Source: Streptacidiphilus anmyonensis
Lineage (GTDB): Bacteria; Actinomycetota; Actinomycetes; Streptomycetales; Streptomycetaceae
Assembly: GCF_000787855.1 (NCBI RefSeq)
Contig: NZ_BBPQ01000003.1
Span: 133,273-169,756, forward strand
DNA length: 36,484 nt
Reading direction: 5' to 3'
Shown here: piece after piece, positions 4,120 to 30,585 of the stretch
Numbering within the stretch: the stretch's first letter is position 1
Layout: every line of letters begins with the position of its first letter
The notes under the pieces: model-generated
The model's input: the letters and a program-made list of their open reading frames with translations, nothing else
What the model was told of the DNA's origin: nothing
Databases searched by the model: none
Translations under genes and position numbers: made by a program

Positions 4120-4204
4120 TTCACCCCACACACCCTGCGGGTGGTCAGGTCTTGCGGACGGTGCGGAGGTCCGTGGCACACTGACACCAGCAGTACGACG
4201 TTTT

Positions 4205-4331
4205 GCGCACTCCGGGGTCGGTGAAAGTCCGAACCGGCGGTTACAGTCCGCGACCCGACCGCTTCCAGCGGCCGGTTGACCAGGTGAAATTCCTGGACCG
4301 ACGGTTAAAGTCCGGATGGGAGGCAGTGCGC
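4205..4331 (+). promoter_or_regulatory. FMN riboswitch (RFN element)
   Basis: The conserved RFN blocks are present in order: GGTCGGTGAAAGTCCGAACC, CCGGCGGTTACAGTCCGCGA, GGTGAAATTCCTGGACCG and ACGGTTAAAGTCCGGATGGG ending in AGGCAGTGCGC. The closing helix P1 is a perfect 6-bp pair, GCGCAC (4205-4210) with GTGCGC (4326-4331). RFN aptamers bind FMN and shut down riboflavin synthesis or transport genes. It lies about 180 nt before ribE and should control the whole ribE-ribM-ribBA-ribH operon. Confidence 0.97.
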
Positions 4332-4390
4332 GGCGGACGTCGGGCTGCGGCGTCGTCGCCACGCGCGCACCCTGCCGGGTGTGTTCCGGA

Positions 4391-8060: not shown

Positions 8061-8092
8061 AGCGGGGCACCGAGCCGTTTCGGTGCCCCGCT
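8061..8092 (+). terminator. Strong intrinsic hairpin between hisE and hisG
   Basis: A perfect 13-bp stem: AGCGGGGCACCGA (8061-8073) with TCGGTGCCCCGCT (8080-8092), loop GCCGTT, followed by TTCG. It begins 20 nt after the hisE stop and should terminate or attenuate read-through into hisG. Confidence 0.8.
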
Positions 8093-16965: not shown

Positions 16966-19017
16966 CTACCGACCGTCGATGAGTTCTCCATAGGCCTGGA
17001 GAACGTCCGGCAGCCGCAACGCGGCCAGGTCCTGTCTGGTGGGCAGCTCGGCCAGCACCGACAGCCGCAGGTCCCGGTAGGCGCAGGACTTCTCGTACAG
17101 CGTGCGCATGAAGCGCCCGTTGCCGAGGTCGTCGATCCAGCCCTCGCGCACCACGTGGCCGCAGATGCTGCGGAGCTCCTCCAGGGCCTCGTCGTCCCAG
17201 AAGTCCCCGTCGTGCGCGGCCAGCGACTGGCCGATGGCGGCCAGTTCGACGGGGCGGTAGCTCGGGAAGTCGACGCGGGTGGTGAAGCGGGAGCTGAGGC
17301 CGGGGTTGGCGGCCAGCAGGCGGTTCATGCCCTCGGGGTAGCCGGCGAGGATGACGACCAGGCGGTCGCGGTTGTCCTCCGCGCGCTTGAGCAGGACCTG
17401 GAGGGCCTCGTCGCCGTAGGCGTCGCCCTTGGAGTAGCCGGAGTTGGCGAGGCTGTAGGCCTCGTCTATGAACAGGACCCCGTCCAGCGCGGAGTCGATC
17501 AGCTCGTTGGCCTTCACCGCGGTCTGGCCCAGGAACTCGCCCACCAGGTCCGCGCGCTGGGCCTCGACCAGGTGGTCGCCGCTGAGCAGGCCGAGGGCGT
17601 AGAAGACCCGGCCGAGGATCCGGGCGACGGTGGTCTTGCCGGTCCCGGAGGGGCCGGAGAACACGAAGTGCCGCTTGGGCGGCTGCACCGGCAGGCCCTG
17701 GTCCGCGCGCAGGCGCGCCATCCGCAGCTGGGCGGAGAGCGCCAGCACCTGCCGCTTGACCGGCTCCAGCCCGACCATGCGGTCGAGTTCGGCCAGCGCC
17801 GCCTCCAGCCGCTGCTGGTCCGGCGGCGTCTCGCGGTTCGCGGACGCGGGCAGCGCGGCGCGGTCGCGGGCGGCCGGGACGGTCGCGCTCTCGGTCGCGC
17901 CGTCGACGGTCGTGGTGCCCGCCGCCGTCTCCGCCTCGGCCTCCTCCTCGTCCTCGGCGAGCGGGAAGCCGGGCAGCGGGTCGTAGAAGACCGGCTCGAA
18001 GCCGACGTCGACGGGGTTGTCGGCGCCGTCGTCGAAGTCCGTCGCGTCGGCGCCGCCCTCGAAGCCCGTCCCCTCGAACCCGCCGCCCTCGAAGCCCGTC
18101 CCCTCGAACGCGGTCGCGTCGAAGCCCGTGCCGTCGAACGCGGTGATGTCGAAGCCGGACACGTCCCCGCCGCCGACGCCGCCCGCCCGGCCGGGACGCA
18201 GCAGGCCCGGCTCCTGCGGGGACTCGAGCAGGGCGGGGTCGACGCCGTCCTCCGCGGTGATCGCGGCGAGGCGGGCGGAGGTGTCCATGAAGCCGGGGTC
18301 GACCCGGTGCACCGCCCGGTAGAGCGAGAGGGCCGCCGCGCTGCGGCCGACGCCCTCGTAGGCGCGGGCGAGCCAGTACCGCAGCTCCTTGCGCTGCGGC
18401 TGCTCCGAGCGGCAGCGGGCGAGCGAGGTCGACAGCGGCAGCTCGGCCTGGCCGCACATGTCGAGGCGCACCCGCGCCATGCCGCTGAACAGGCCCGCCT
18501 CGATGCCGAGCAGCGGGTCGTCGAGCAGCCCGTCGGTGTCGCGGATCAGCTGCTCCCAGTCCTTGGTGAGGTAGGAGCGGCAGGCGTGCAGGAAGCGGAC
18601 GGCGCTGTCCTCGGTCGCGCCGGGGCACTCGGCCAGCGCCTGGTCGAGCTCGGCGAGGTGGCGTCCGTCGAGCCAGTGCGAGGCGTGGGCCAGGGTCAGG
18701 TCCCGCCCGGTCTCCAGCAGCGGCTGGACCCACCAGCCCAGCCAGTACCAGGAGCTGAGCGGACGTCGGTGGCGGCGCCGCTGCTCGCCGAAGCGCTCCC
18801 GGTGCCGGTGCATGTTCAGCAGGGCGGCCGAGGTGTCCGAGCGCAGCGCGTGCAGGCCGAGCCAGGCGTCGGCCATGCCCGGGTCGAGCCGGACGGCGGC
18901 ACGGAACTCCTCCTCGGCGCGGGTGTACGCGCCGGCGGTGTAGGCGTCCATGGCACGCAGCCAGGCGCGATCGGCCAGGCCGCGTGAGCGCCTGTCGCCG
19001 TTGTCCTCAGTCCCCAC
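16966..19017 (-). CDS. TPR-AAA+ ATPase (CbxX/CfxQ, EccA-like)
   Basis: 683 aa from a GTG at 19017, preceded by AGGGGG 7 nt away. An ATG at 19110 would add 31 low-complexity residues and lacks a good SD. The N-terminal half (about 15-250) is helical with TPR-like repeats (AYTAGAYTRAEEEFRAAVRL). A linker (about 287-321) holds phenylalanine repeats such as EGTGFEGGGFEGTGF, then an acidic stretch. The C-terminal CbxX/CfxQ AAA+ domain has Walker A GPSGTGKTT (455-463), Walker B GVLFIDEAYS, sensor VVILAGYPEGMN and arginine finger SSRF. TPR plus CbxX is the plan of EccA in type VII secretion, but no other ESX gene is present here. Partners are unknown. Confidence 0.9.
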   Translation of the reverse strand: MGTEDNGDRRSRGLADRAWLRAMDAYTAGAYTRAEEEFRAAVRLDPGMADAWLGLHALRSDTSAALLNMHRHRERFGEQRRRHRRPLSSWYWLGWWVQPLLETGRDLTLAHASHWLDGRHLAELDQALAECPGATEDSAVRFLHACRSYLTKDWEQLIRDTDGLLDDPLLGIEAGLFSGMARVRLDMCGQAELPLSTSLARCRSEQPQRKELRYWLARAYEGVGRSAAALSLYRAVHRVDPGFMDTSARLAAITAEDGVDPALLESPQEPGLLRPGRAGGVGGGDVSGFDITAFDGTGFDATAFEGTGFEGGGFEGTGFEGGADATDFDDGADNPVDVGFEPVFYDPLPGFPLAEDEEEAEAETAAGTTTVDGATESATVPAARDRAALPASANRETPPDQQRLEAALAELDRMVGLEPVKRQVLALSAQLRMARLRADQGLPVQPPKRHFVFSGPSGTGKTTVARILGRVFYALGLLSGDHLVEAQRADLVGEFLGQTAVKANELIDSALDGVLFIDEAYSLANSGYSKGDAYGDEALQVLLKRAEDNRDRLVVILAGYPEGMNRLLAANPGLSSRFTTRVDFPSYRPVELAAIGQSLAAHDGDFWDDEALEELRSICGHVVREGWIDDLGNGRFMRTLYEKSCAYRDLRLSVLAELPTRQDLAALRLPDVLQAYGELIDGR

Positions 19018-19292
19018 CGCTTCGCCCCCTGCTGCTCCGCGTCCCCGCTGCCCGCTGGAGGGCTGACCCGGGAGGCCTGCAGACGCCACACCTTGACGGT
19101 CCGTGAGCACGCGGCGACCGAGCCCGCACGCTCATGGGGAATCGTACCGGGGTCTTGCTGATCCGGAAGAGTGCCGCGCTGCCGTATCGGCTGGTGGGGA
19201 CATAAACAGAGTTCTCACACAAGCGGAGGGTTTTACTCTGCATATCACGCTCGGTCACCGGGGCCAGTGGTGCCTGGCGGACGGATGGGCCG

Positions 19293-19370
19293 GAAAAGGA
19301 CGAGCTGCCGGCCACGGGGGAACGGCCGGCAGCTCGTGTCTGCGAAGCGCGATCACAGTGCGTCGCGCTG
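19293..19370 (-). ncRNA. Candidate small RNA, about 78 nt, two stem-loops
   Basis: A promoter-like TTGACC-18-TACGTT (19406-19377, minus strand) is followed by a compact structured transcript. Stem-loop 1 is GCGCGA/TCGCGC (19368-19363 with 19352-19347, 10-nt loop). Stem-loop 2 is a perfect 14-bp terminator stem (19337-19300) and the RNA ends in CCTTTTCC. On the RNA the terminator loop reads GTTCCCCCGT, a C-run able to pair with Shine-Dalgarno sequences. No convincing protein is encoded. Ends are estimated from box spacing. It lies between the uridine-kinase-like gene and the AAA+ gene. Confidence 0.5.
19300..19337 (-). terminator. Intrinsic terminator, perfect 14-bp stem
   Basis: ACGAGCTGCCGGCC (19300-19313) is the exact complement of 19324-19337, with a 10-nt loop. 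On the minus strand it is followed by CCTTTTCC, a usable U-tract by streptomycete standards. It would end the candidate small RNA and any read-through from the kinase gene. Confidence 0.8.
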
Positions 19371-19376
19371 ATTCAG

Positions 19377-19406
19377 AACGTAGTTGGTGCCAGGGGTGCA
19401 GGTCAA
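19377..19406 (-). promoter_or_regulatory. Sigma-70 type promoter of the candidate small RNA
   Basis: On the minus strand TTGACC (19406-19401), an 18-nt spacer and TACGTT (19382-19377) match the TTGACN/TANNNT pattern of the main streptomycete sigma factor well. Of the promoters noted by eye in this window, it has the best pair of boxes. Confidence 0.6.
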
Positions 19407-19499
19407 GGGCATCATCGTGGGGTGGTTCGCCCCCGGGCGGTTGCGTTCCCCGACGATTCGCTGGCTCGCGGACAGGCTATTGGGTACACGCTGTAGCGA

Positions 19500-20081
19500 T
19501 TACGCTGCGTCAGCGAACGGCCGACCGGTGGAGCCGGTCACCAGGAAATCCGCGAAGCCACGGCTGGGGTCGACACGGAAGTGCTCGGACTGTTCCTTCG
19601 TCCACTGTTTCCAGAACTCCGCGAGCTGCGGACCGTCCCGCAGTTCGCCGCGCGTGCGGGCGGTCTCGGCGTCCAGGTCCATCCACAGCAGCGCCGACAG
19701 GTACGGCCGCACCGCGCGCCGTCCGGCGCCCACGCCCTCCAGGATCAGGAACGGCGGAGCGGCCGGAAGCTCCCGGACCGTCTCGTCGAACCGCGCGAGC
19801 TCCCAGTCGTAGACGCGGTGGCGCACCGGACGTCCCTCGGCCAGGGGTGCGAGCACCTCCGTCCGCAGCCGGCCGGTCCAGGCGAAGAACTCCTCGTGCG
19901 TCGCCAGATCGTCCAGGTGCACGACCGGAGCGGGGCCGTCCTCGCCGAGTTCCCCGGCGAGGAGGGCGGCGAAGGTGGTCTTGCCGGAGCCGGCGTAGCC
20001 GTCGACGGCCAGCAGTCGCGTCGGCCCGCAGGAGGGCGCGAGGACGCGGAGGCGCGCGGCGAGGGAGGGGAGGCTGAGCAT
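19500..20081 (-). CDS. Uridine kinase-like P-loop NTPase
   Basis: 193 aa. Walker A is GYAGSGKTT (about 28-36); a PVVHLDDLATHEEFF segment supplies the acidic residues that in uridine and panthothenate kinases follow the P-loop; FLILEGVGAGRRAV and the DLDAETARTRGELRDG lid region follow. The pattern is that of the uridine kinase/PRK superfamily, so phosphorylation of a nucleoside or other small alcohol is expected, but the substrate cannot be read from the sequence. It is divergent from the acyl-CoA dehydrogenase gene; the next minus-strand items are the small-RNA candidate and the AAA+ gene. Confidence 0.82.
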   Translation of the reverse strand: MLSLPSLAARLRVLAPSCGPTRLLAVDGYAGSGKTTFAALLAGELGEDGPAPVVHLDDLATHEEFFAWTGRLRTEVLAPLAEGRPVRHRVYDWELARFDETVRELPAAPPFLILEGVGAGRRAVRPYLSALLWMDLDAETARTRGELRDGPQLAEFWKQWTKEQSEHFRVDPSRGFADFLVTGSTGRPFADAA

Positions 20082-20173
20082 GGTGATCCGAGCCTACGGC
20101 GTGACGGCCCGGATCCGCCCAGCTCCGGCGTGGTGCGGGCCGCCCCGAATGGGGCATACTTCCAGCGCTGCAT

Positions 20174-20189
20174 GTTAGCGATCGTTCAC
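20174..20189. promoter_or_regulatory. Palindromic operator candidate upstream of the acyl-CoA dehydrogenase
   Basis: GTTAGCGATCGTTCAC matches its own reverse complement at 12 of 16 positions, centred on CGATCG. It sits about 85 nt before the ACAD start in the divergent intergenic region, a usual place for TetR-type operators of fatty-acid genes. Confidence 0.45.
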
Positions 20190-20218
20190 CGAGACCCGGT
20201 GCCGTCGTACGTGTCGTC

Positions 20219-20247
20219 GCCCGACCTCCCCACCTGGGGCGTCGGGC
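20219..20247 (+). other. Hairpin in the 5' leader of the acyl-CoA dehydrogenase gene
   Basis: GCCCGAC (20219-20225) pairs with GTCGGGC (20241-20247), and an inner CCCC-ACCT-GGGG continues the stem. It ends about 10 nt before the AGGAGG ribosome site, so it might affect translation or mRNA stability. Confidence 0.5.
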
Positions 20248-20272
20248 CCCGAGACCAGGAGGCAGAGCCGCC

Positions 20273-21433
20273 ATGACCGCGTCCGCGACCAAGCCCGTCG
20301 AGCGCCAGCTCCCCACCGACGAGGCGCGCGAGCTGCTCGCGCTCACCCGGGACCTCGCCGACAACGAGCTCCGGCCGCAGGCGTCCGAGGAGGAGGCCGC
20401 GGCGGAGTTCCCCCGCGAGGCCTTCCGCACGCTCGGCCGCTCGGGTCTGCTGGGCCTCCCGTACGACGAGCAGTACGGCGGCGGCGCCCAGCCGTACGAG
20501 GTCTACCTCCAGGTGATCGAGGAGCTGGCGGCCGCGCGCCTCACCGTCGGCCTCGGCCTCAGCGTGCACACCCTCTCCTGCCACGCCCTCGCCACCTTCG
20601 GCAGTGAGGCGCAGCGCGAGAAGTGGCTGCCGGACATGATCGGCGGCGAGCAACTCGGCGCGTACTGCCTCTCCGAGCCGCAGTCCGGTTCGGACGCGGC
20701 CGGGCTGAAGACCCGGGCCCTGCGGGAGGGCGACGAATACGTCGTCAACGGCACCAAGGCGTGGATCACCCACGGCGGCGTCGCCGACTTCTACAGCACG
20801 ATGGTGCGCACCAGCGACGACGGCCCGCGCGGCATCAGCGTGCTGCTGGTCCCGGCCGACACCCCCGGCGTCTCCGGCGCAGCGCCCGAGCGCAAGATGG
20901 GTATGAAGGGCTCCCCGACCGCCCAGGTCCTCTTCGACGACGCCCACGTCCCCGCGGAGCGCCTGATCGGCCAGGAGGGCCAGGGCTTCGGCATCGCCAT
21001 GGCCGCGCTGGACTCCGGCCGCCTCGGCATCGCCGCGTGCGCGGTGGGCGTGGCCCAGGCCGCGCTGGACTACGCGGTGGGCTACGCGAAGGAGCGCGAG
21101 CAGTTCGGCCGCGCCATCGCGGACTTCCAGGGCCTGTCCTTCCTGCTCGCCGACATGGCGACCGCGGTCGAGGCCGGCCGCGCCCTCTACCTGGCGGCCG
21201 CGCGCCGCCGCGACGCCGGGCTCTCCTTCAGCAAGGAGGCGGCGATGGCCAAGCTCTTCTGCACGGACGCGGCGATGCGCGTCACCACGGACGCGGTCCA
21301 GGTCCTCGGCGGCTACGGCTACACCCAGGACCACCCGGTCGAGCGGTACATGCGCGAGGCGAAGGTGCTCCAGATCGTCGAGGGCACCAACCAGATCCAG
21401 CGCCTGGTGATCGGCAGGACGCTCACCCGCTGA
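20273..21433 (+). CDS. Acyl-CoA dehydrogenase
   Basis: 386 aa, standard length. Domain order is ACAD_N (about 15-125), the middle beta domain with YCLSEPQSGSDAAGLKTRA and GTKAWITHGG, and the helical C-domain with the FAD/CoA motif YTQDHPVERYMREAKV. The likely catalytic base is Glu370 in QIVEGTNQIQRLVIGR, the position used by short/medium-chain enzymes. It oxidises an acyl-CoA to the enoyl-CoA with electrons going to ETF. AGGAGG lies about 10 nt before the ATG. It is followed by an inverted repeat and then by a DUF and an APH-family kinase gene, an association reminiscent of ACAD10/ACAD11. Confidence 0.96.
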   Translation: MTASATKPVERQLPTDEARELLALTRDLADNELRPQASEEEAAAEFPREAFRTLGRSGLLGLPYDEQYGGGAQPYEVYLQVIEELAAARLTVGLGLSVHTLSCHALATFGSEAQREKWLPDMIGGEQLGAYCLSEPQSGSDAAGLKTRALREGDEYVVNGTKAWITHGGVADFYSTMVRTSDDGPRGISVLLVPADTPGVSGAAPERKMGMKGSPTAQVLFDDAHVPAERLIGQEGQGFGIAMAALDSGRLGIAACAVGVAQAALDYAVGYAKEREQFGRAIADFQGLSFLLADMATAVEAGRALYLAAARRRDAGLSFSKEAAMAKLFCTDAAMRVTTDAVQVLGGYGYTQDHPVERYMREAKVLQIVEGTNQIQRLVIGRTLTR

Positions 21434-27259: not shown

Positions 27260-27290
27260 TTGACAGGCCCTGCGGGGCCGCGAGTAGGTT
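27260..27290 (+). promoter_or_regulatory. Promoter candidate with 19-bp spacer and central dyad
   Basis: TTGACA (27260-27265) and TAGGTT (27285-27290) are near-consensus boxes 19 bp apart, and the spacer holds GGCCC-TGCG-GGGCC. The long spacer with a dyad resembles MerR-controlled promoters. Transcription would run through about 350 nt before lnt. Confidence 0.5.
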
Positions 27291-30535: not shown

Positions 30536-30585
30536 GCGCGACGAGGCCCGGGCTCCCCGCGAGGGGAGCCCGGGCCTCGTCGCGC
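30536..30585 (-). terminator. Very strong terminator after rbpA
   Basis: A perfect 23-bp stem (30536-30558 with 30563-30585) capped by a GCGA tetraloop starts 8 nt after the rbpA stop. No U-tract follows on the minus strand, as is common in streptomycetes. Confidence 0.85.

Follow-up and report, generated by a model that had tools for sequence, protein, structure and literature searches.

Streptomycetes rank among the main sources of antibiotics, and a function is known for few of their small RNAs. Small RNAs with C-rich loops or motifs are known from several bacteria: the 6C RNA has two hairpins whose loops contain runs of six C, and the Rsa group of Staphylococcus aureus pairs C-rich motifs with target mRNAs. 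Mycobacterial B11, a 6C RNA, represses a reporter that carries the eccB4 5' UTR, whose six-G tract could pair with either of the two C-rich loops of B11, and this repression survived the alteration of either loop singly (PMC10470900). S. aureus RNAIII, which belongs to another phylum and context, also has C-rich loops that pair with target mRNAs (PMC3765725). Within Streptomyces, Moody et al. (2013), who name small RNAs after the right flanking gene, used RNA-seq and Northern blots to detect the RNA scr1434/sar6912/svr1031 in S. coelicolor, S. avermitilis and S. venezuelae; their account gives it as highly expressed, with a peak in aerial growth and sporulation on the blots, and describes scr1434 as conserved among streptomycetes and as forming a very stable stem-loop whose loop is rich in C (PMC3765725). 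Two further RNAs, scr5583 and a sodF-associated RNA, are portrayed there as likewise conserved and highly expressed, and scr5583 as having a C-rich terminal loop (PMC3765725). Open-access full texts searched for this RNA under its names in the three species, and for SCO1434, yielded no other relevant paper.

We analyzed a stretch of 36,484 nucleotides from Streptacidiphilus anmyonensis (assembly GCF_000787855.1, contig NZ_BBPQ01000003.1, positions 133,273 to 169,756), referred to here as the window. A sequence-only reading had proposed a small-RNA gene on its minus strand, between a kinase gene and an AAA+ gene. Sequence, folding and comparison with relatives confirm this gene and its named parts, including the first stem-loop and the perfect 14-bp terminator stem, and all three genes lie on the minus strand (Table 1). 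The same reading had called both promoter boxes near-consensus, a description that holds for the looser streptomycete form of the -10 element, TAnnnT, and fails for TATAAT, with which TACGTT shares three of six letters.

Table 1. Features of the small-RNA locus, in window coordinates
Feature	Position	Strand	Basis or remark
Small-RNA gene	19406-19292	minus	promoter boxes to tail, between kinase and AAA+ genes
-35 box TTGACC	19406-19401	minus	sequence; alignment of relatives
-10 box TACGTT	19382-19377	minus	18-nt spacer from -35 box
Likely transcription start	19373-19369	minus	placed from the position of the -10 box
Predicted transcript, about 80 nt	19373-19292	minus	start placed as above; fold
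5' hairpin	19369-19346	minus	fold; helix 1 of alignment A1
Terminator hairpin, 14 perfect pairs	19337-19300 (arms 19337-19324 with 19313-19300)	minus	fold; helix 2 of alignment A1
C-rich loop GTTCCCCCGT	19323-19314	minus	nearly fixed tip in relatives
Tail CCTTTTCC	19299-19292	minus	sequence after hairpin
Conserved block (promoter, transcript, terminator)	19413-19279	minus	match in genome G012; column conservation in 170 distinct units
AAA+ gene	16966-19110	minus	downstream of unit; start codon uncertain; putative SCO1434 counterpart
Small P-loop kinase gene	19500-20081	minus	upstream of unit; weak PRK/uridine kinase match, below Pfam cut-off

For the predicted transcript of 82 nt the fold has an energy of -45 kcal/mol (z -5.95), a value equalled by none of 200 shuffles. 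Three sites in the window have a perfect hairpin with arms of at least 13 nt and a loop of 3-12 nt, where the mean per shuffle is 0.13 (30 shuffles, maximum 2), and TTGAC-N18-20-TANNNT matches twice in the window, both strands summed. Generic promoter and terminator scanners run over 18000-21000 returned no promoter and no terminator, because TACGTT departs from TATAAT at half its letters and the T-run of the tail is just four long. Taken alone, this single-sequence evidence for a small-RNA gene is moderate, and the comparison with relatives is decisive. Elsewhere in the window, the other promoter-like match lies at 27260 on the plus strand, with boxes TTGACA and TAGGTT; a perfect 13-bp hairpin with a 6-nt loop sits between hisE and hisG (8061-8092); and at 30536-30585 a perfect inverted repeat, with arms of 23 bp around a 4-nt loop, exceeds the small-RNA hairpin in length.

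Gene order offers a name for the unit. The sole match in the window at the Rfam gathering level is an FMN riboswitch (4203-4333, plus strand, 99.2 bits), which is followed, as judged from translations, by ribE, a pnuX-like gene, ribBA, ribH, hisE, hisG, a PH-domain-like gene and two CNNM-type genes. A few extra genes separate the CNNM genes from the AAA+ gene in the window, whereas in Streptomyces loci the order runs directly from CNNM through AAA+ and the unit to the kinase; all 30 Streptomyces loci that reach both hisG and the first CNNM gene show the order hisG, PH, CNNM1, with CNNM2 and AAA+ following where they are reached. SCO1443 is a riboflavin synthase gene with an RFN element (PMC4681348). 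Counting down from this anchor as ribE gives 1442 for the pnuX-like gene, 1441 for ribBA, 1440 for ribH, 1439 for hisE, 1438 for hisG, 1437 for the PH-domain gene, 1436 and 1435 for the CNNM genes and 1434 for the AAA+ gene, a count that assumes that S. coelicolor, which is outside the compared records, keeps this order. The riboflavin-operon gene order together with the SCO1443 anchor therefore points to the AAA+ gene as SCO1434. The window unit and scr1434, as the latter is described, have in common a probable place to the left of SCO1434, an intergenic position, conservation among streptomycetes and a very stable stem-loop whose loop is rich in C (PMC3765725). We infer from gene order and these features that the unit is very probably the ortholog of scr1434, so that an RNA to which the sequence-only reading could attach no known family now has a likely name. 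By comparison, scr5583 and the sodF-associated RNA can be likened to the unit by description, scr5583 also in its C-rich loop, and by name belong to other loci, near SCO5583 and behind sodF (PMC3765725).

No Rfam 15 family matches the unit, either in the window or in nine relative loci, and the part of an Rfam-based S. lividans table that we consulted names no RNA for the SCO1434 locus (PMC8079986). A family that resembles the unit is 6C (RF01066, which includes B11), also an actinobacterial small RNA, with hairpin loops rich in C and a terminator-like stem of high GC content. The 6C model scores 30 bits on the terminator hairpin (E 0.034), against a gathering cut-off of 47, and finds no match at E up to 1 in the nine relative loci, among them four variants with two hairpins (L320, L322, L323, L330). 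In addition, 6C has two C-loops, whereas the unit in the window has one, of five C, and stands at another locus among other neighbours. We therefore rejected membership in 6C, a family with which comparison had been suggested from the sequence, on both score and architecture.

Conservation of the unit in relatives is confined to the span from promoter to terminator, while the flanks diverge. A 301-nt nucleotide query matched 17 of 61 genomes, its own included, several of which, outside the genus, match the terminator part only; within the genus, 10 of 14 genomes match. In G012, query positions 88-222 alone align, at 93% identity, which corresponds to window 19413-19279, from before the -35 box to past the terminator, and similarly confined matches occur in G004 (query 93-222) and G003 (query 88-207). 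Across 170 distinct units, column conservation increases some 10 nt upstream of the -35 box and drops about 8 nt past the terminator stem. A strict pattern, TTGAC-N18-20-TACGTT-N38-68-GTTCCCCCGT, recovers the unit in 196 of 297 family genomes, in one copy each save for two in G004, and finds none when read backwards. A scan of named genomes returned at least 120 stretches; of 80 titles among the matches listed, 78 are labelled Streptomyces and one Streptosporangium nondiastaticum (L082, syntenic). The remaining title, a contig labelled as a Bordetella parapertussis MAG (L042), has no hairpin, AAA+ gene or kinase gene, and we take it for a chance match.

Both helices of the predicted RNA covary. 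In an alignment (A1) of 72 of 131 non-redundant units, hand-picked to cover the lineages, 15 of 21 base pairs show two-sided changes and 98.1% of cells are paired, compared to a shuffled mean of 90.9%, with none of 500 shuffles as high. In the 5' hairpin four of five pairs have changed on both sides and 93.8% of cells are paired; for the terminator the figures are 11 of 16 and 99.1%. Sliding the partner by one to three columns lowers pairing to 34-50%, and RNAalifold agrees. Related sequences can beat shuffles without structure; the pair-count and type-count measures, which are robust to relatedness, also exceed all 500 shuffles. As far as an alignment can indicate it, the structure itself is under selection, beyond the letters alone. 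The -35 box TTGACC is invariant in A1, although the collecting pattern, which fixes promoter and loop letters (TTGAC among them), makes invariance in this alignment partly a matter of construction. Most Streptomyces units in A1 have tails with fewer T than that of the window, for example TTCTGCCC.

These observations bear on the simplest alternative, that the hairpin is merely the terminator of the kinase gene, preceded by a chance promoter-like sequence. The kinase stop does lie some 160 nt ahead of the hairpin, which may well end kinase transcription too. A conserved promoter, a fixed loop and a covarying 5' hairpin would be superfluous for a terminator, however, and the counterpart is reported as expressed as a separate RNA (PMC3765725), which leaves this explanation very improbable.

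Evidence independent of the collecting pattern comes from the nucleotide search, from a covariance-model search and from loci anchored on the kinase. Run on 40 of the 101 family genomes without a pattern match, the covariance model found matches in 33. Clear units, at 41 bits or more, account for 23 of these, and 22 of the 23 are followed by the AAA+ gene inside the locus; four more genomes (G001, G007, G010 and G011) score 28-31 bits, yet are syntenic. All 23 clear units carry the -35 box, except L198, whose match begins later, and the -10 boxes of the pattern-negative relatives are mostly other forms of TAnnnT, such as TACTTT, TAAGTT and TAGGTT, with TGCGTT in L177. A kinase-anchored search of 29 genomes matched 16, and was the sole route to the unit of G200.

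In a search of 296 genomes of the class, the model matched 65. The 26 of these that belong to the family score at least 87 bits, and scores in the 39 from outside it do not exceed 38.3 bits. The four of these 39 that we inspected (L230-L233) have no AAA+ or kinase homolog nearby, and we treat the outside-family matches as background hairpins. The 700 nt behind the kinase relatives of two further families of the class, and of one of the order, contain no unit (L329, L331-L335). One of the inspected hairpins, L232 (G449, of another family), has the loop GTTCCCCCGC on the stem GGAGCCCGGTC with neither a TTGAC box nor an AAA+ or kinase homolog nearby; it could be either chance or a second use of the tip.

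The neighbourhood of the unit is nearly constant. In 165 of 170 pattern loci the AAA+ gene follows on the same strand, and in 163 of 170 the kinase gene precedes on the same strand; these 170 synteny loci include repeat fetches of five genomes, while the 170 units of the column and reading-frame statistics are distinct. The AAA+ gene is missed at L042, at three locus ends and at L103, and the kinase at L042, at four locus ends and at L008 and L173, where none is within reach. The AAA+ product contains Pfam EccA1 N-terminal (above cut-off), AAA and AAA lid domains, and falls below the cut-offs of NCBIfam EccA, SpoVK and CbbX. Between the kinase and AAA+ genes of five genomes, G020, G139, G197, G121 and G261 (L324-L328), we found no recognizable unit; the two genes are nearly adjacent in G121 and G261, and four of the five genomes are of 5.8-6.2 Mb and belong to the largest genus, the fifth being of 6.4 Mb. 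Because these genomes keep both neighbours without the unit, the RNA is a separable module.

This arrangement invites the alternative that the unit is a 5' leader or attenuator of the AAA+ gene, in which the promoter would start the AAA+ mRNA and the hairpin would choose between stop and read-through. The unit does lie on the same strand, just upstream of the AAA+ gene, wherever that gene is found, and read-through is compatible with all the data here. Against this, conservation ends about 8 nt past the stem (in G012 at 19279) instead of running into the AAA+ gene, and the distance to the AAA+ match ranges from about 150 to more than 1000 nt, the long values reflecting in part a poorly conserved AAA+ N-terminus; the end point of conservation and the variable spacing make attenuation less likely. 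Furthermore, the folds that we computed, which were not a dedicated search, contain no alternative antiterminator fold, both genes persist without the unit in five genomes, and the counterpart is reported as a small RNA in three species (PMC3765725). We consider attenuation quite unlikely. Promoter-to-terminator conservation, covariation, fixed synteny, the absence of the unit from five genomes and the published data on its counterpart together argue that this is, almost certainly, a conserved and independent streptomycete small-RNA gene with its own promoter and terminator.

A coding function fits the comparison poorly. The sequence-only reading had noted a single open reading frame, of 20 codons (19415-19353), and had judged the product to be RNA and not protein. 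The frame exists, and is not the only one, as a 33-codon GTG frame on the minus strand (19356-19255) begins within the predicted transcript; the judgement in favour of RNA holds up. Reading frames across the loop vary between relatives (170 distinct units). Leaderless mRNAs are common in Streptomyces, and GTTCCCCCGTGA is present in 161 of the 170 units, so that a short leaderless peptide ending right after the loop (GTT CCC CCG TGA) could be imagined. The distance from -10 box to loop, however, varies by single bases from 46 to 54 nt; frames are open through the loop in all three phases (101, 69 and 78 units, with multiple counting possible), and in 24 of the 170 units no frame is. The window and eight other units have TGG in place of TGA, and third-position variation is absent in the loop, although the collecting pattern demanded the loop letters. 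With both frame and start variable, we reject the peptide reading, whose likelihood we regard as negligible.

The feature that most distinguishes the family is a nearly fixed loop on freely changing stems. Described here for the first time are this loop, GUUCCCCCGU, on stems of 9-33 uninterrupted pairs that are rewritten between lineages, as well as the conserved promoter, the two-hairpin variants and the losses in five genomes. The loop is kept in 28 of the 40 pattern-negative genomes (the 23 clear units, the four weaker ones and G200, where its 5' half is altered); in these units it reads GTTCCCCCG followed by T or C, with the exception of G200, where it reads CTCTCCCCCGT. Three g4 genomes carry the variant GTTCCCCCGC. 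The window and G012 have 14 uninterrupted pairs beneath the loop and typical relatives that we checked have 13-16, while the final hairpin has 33 in G001 (L322), 31 in G010 (L320), 23 in G011 (L323) and 16 in G007 (L330). In G001, G010 and G011 the final stems differ in sequence from that of the window, and the tip is still GTTCCCCCGT. These three genomes and G007, alone among the loci examined, have a further hairpin with GTTCCCC or GTTCCCCCG in its loop, and it looks as if the tip had been doubled or transplanted onto a new stem. G068 (L195) presents GTTCCCCCGT on a nested hairpin of nine uninterrupted pairs that has been inserted into the original loop; the copy belonging to that loop reads GTTCCCTAG. 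Because the tip is kept almost letter for letter while the stem changes, it is probably the working part of the RNA.

How such a tip might work was sought among possible partners. In seven genomes, ACGGGGGAAC occurs 2-14 nt before RTG 61 times (four being the opposite strand of the unit itself), against 13 times read backwards, and 55 of these loci, once inspected, had no gene shared between genomes except two distant ABC proteins. In 12 Streptomyces genomes, CGGGGGAAC occurs 3-9 nt before ATG 98 times against 68 in the control, and 30 inspected loci held one related pair of open reading frames (L290, L312), of doubtful coding status. Since ribosome sites are G-rich anyway, we claim no enrichment from either surplus. 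The string CGGGGGAACTTCTC(C/T)TC(C/G)ATG recurs in five of the 12 genomes; at three inspected loci the frames behind ATG have 9, 181 and 10 codons, unlike gene starts, and we read the string as coding sequence on the opposite strand. Nor do the neighbouring genes pair with the loop better than with 12 permuted loops: the mean best run is 8.25 for the AAA+ leader (permuted, 7.15-9.22) and 6.50 for the kinase gene (permuted, 7.00-8.65). With the exact 10-mer and 9-mer complements near start codons, then, no target conserved between genomes was found, which leaves room for many weak or shifting targets, for shorter seeds or for a protein partner.

The last of these possibilities would make the unit a protein-binding hairpin, whose fixed tip binds a dedicated protein that the RNA sequesters or guides. 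A loop that hardly varies on free stems, together with the failure of our searches to find a conserved mRNA partner, would suit such a role, as would the second C-rich hairpin in four genomes of the genus, which recalls multi-site sponges. The idea comes without a candidate protein, however; five consecutive C also suit pairing with G-runs, and the actinobacterial precedent, B11/6C, is one of pairing (PMC10470900). We regard protein binding as unlikely.

The explanation that we favour as a whole, and hold to be reasonably likely, is that of an independent small RNA of about 80 nt, orthologous to scr1434, whose tip pairs with G-runs of ribosome sites. A housekeeping-type promoter, TTGACC-18-TACGTT, would drive the RNA, and its own GC-rich terminator hairpin would end it. 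The RNA may then act in trans, its GC-rich stem presenting GUUCCCCCGU as a single-stranded tip that could pair with G-runs in the ribosome-binding regions of mRNAs, for which B11/6C offers the precedent. Such pairing would mostly lower translation, as with mycobacterial 6C/B11, and would probably take place in aerial growth and sporulation, when the counterpart is most abundant. On the present analysis, the specific proposal, raised already by the sequence-only reading, that the RNA acts through pairing of its C-rich tip stands at about even chances. A bolder and more tentative idea is that GUUCCCCCGU is a dedicated tip read independently of its stem, in an uncharacterised regulator found across the Streptomycetaceae that either competes broadly for G-rich ribosome sites in sporulation or uses a dedicated protein. 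Selection would then fix tip and promoter but allow the stem to change, whether by rewriting, by growth to 33 pairs, by nesting or by doubling; this, too, we put forward as a conjecture that may well prove wrong.

The analysis thus takes a kind of RNA already known, scr1434, to the level of the whole family, with its structure tested and its tip seen to be nearly fixed. Annotation based on Rfam misses the unit because no Rfam 15 family matches it. The unit is single-copy and syntenic, its ten-letter tip is almost fixed throughout the family, and its counterpart is described as highly expressed in the three species measured (PMC3765725). The five genomes without the unit and the four with a second C-rich hairpin provide natural comparisons for this streptomycete RNA.
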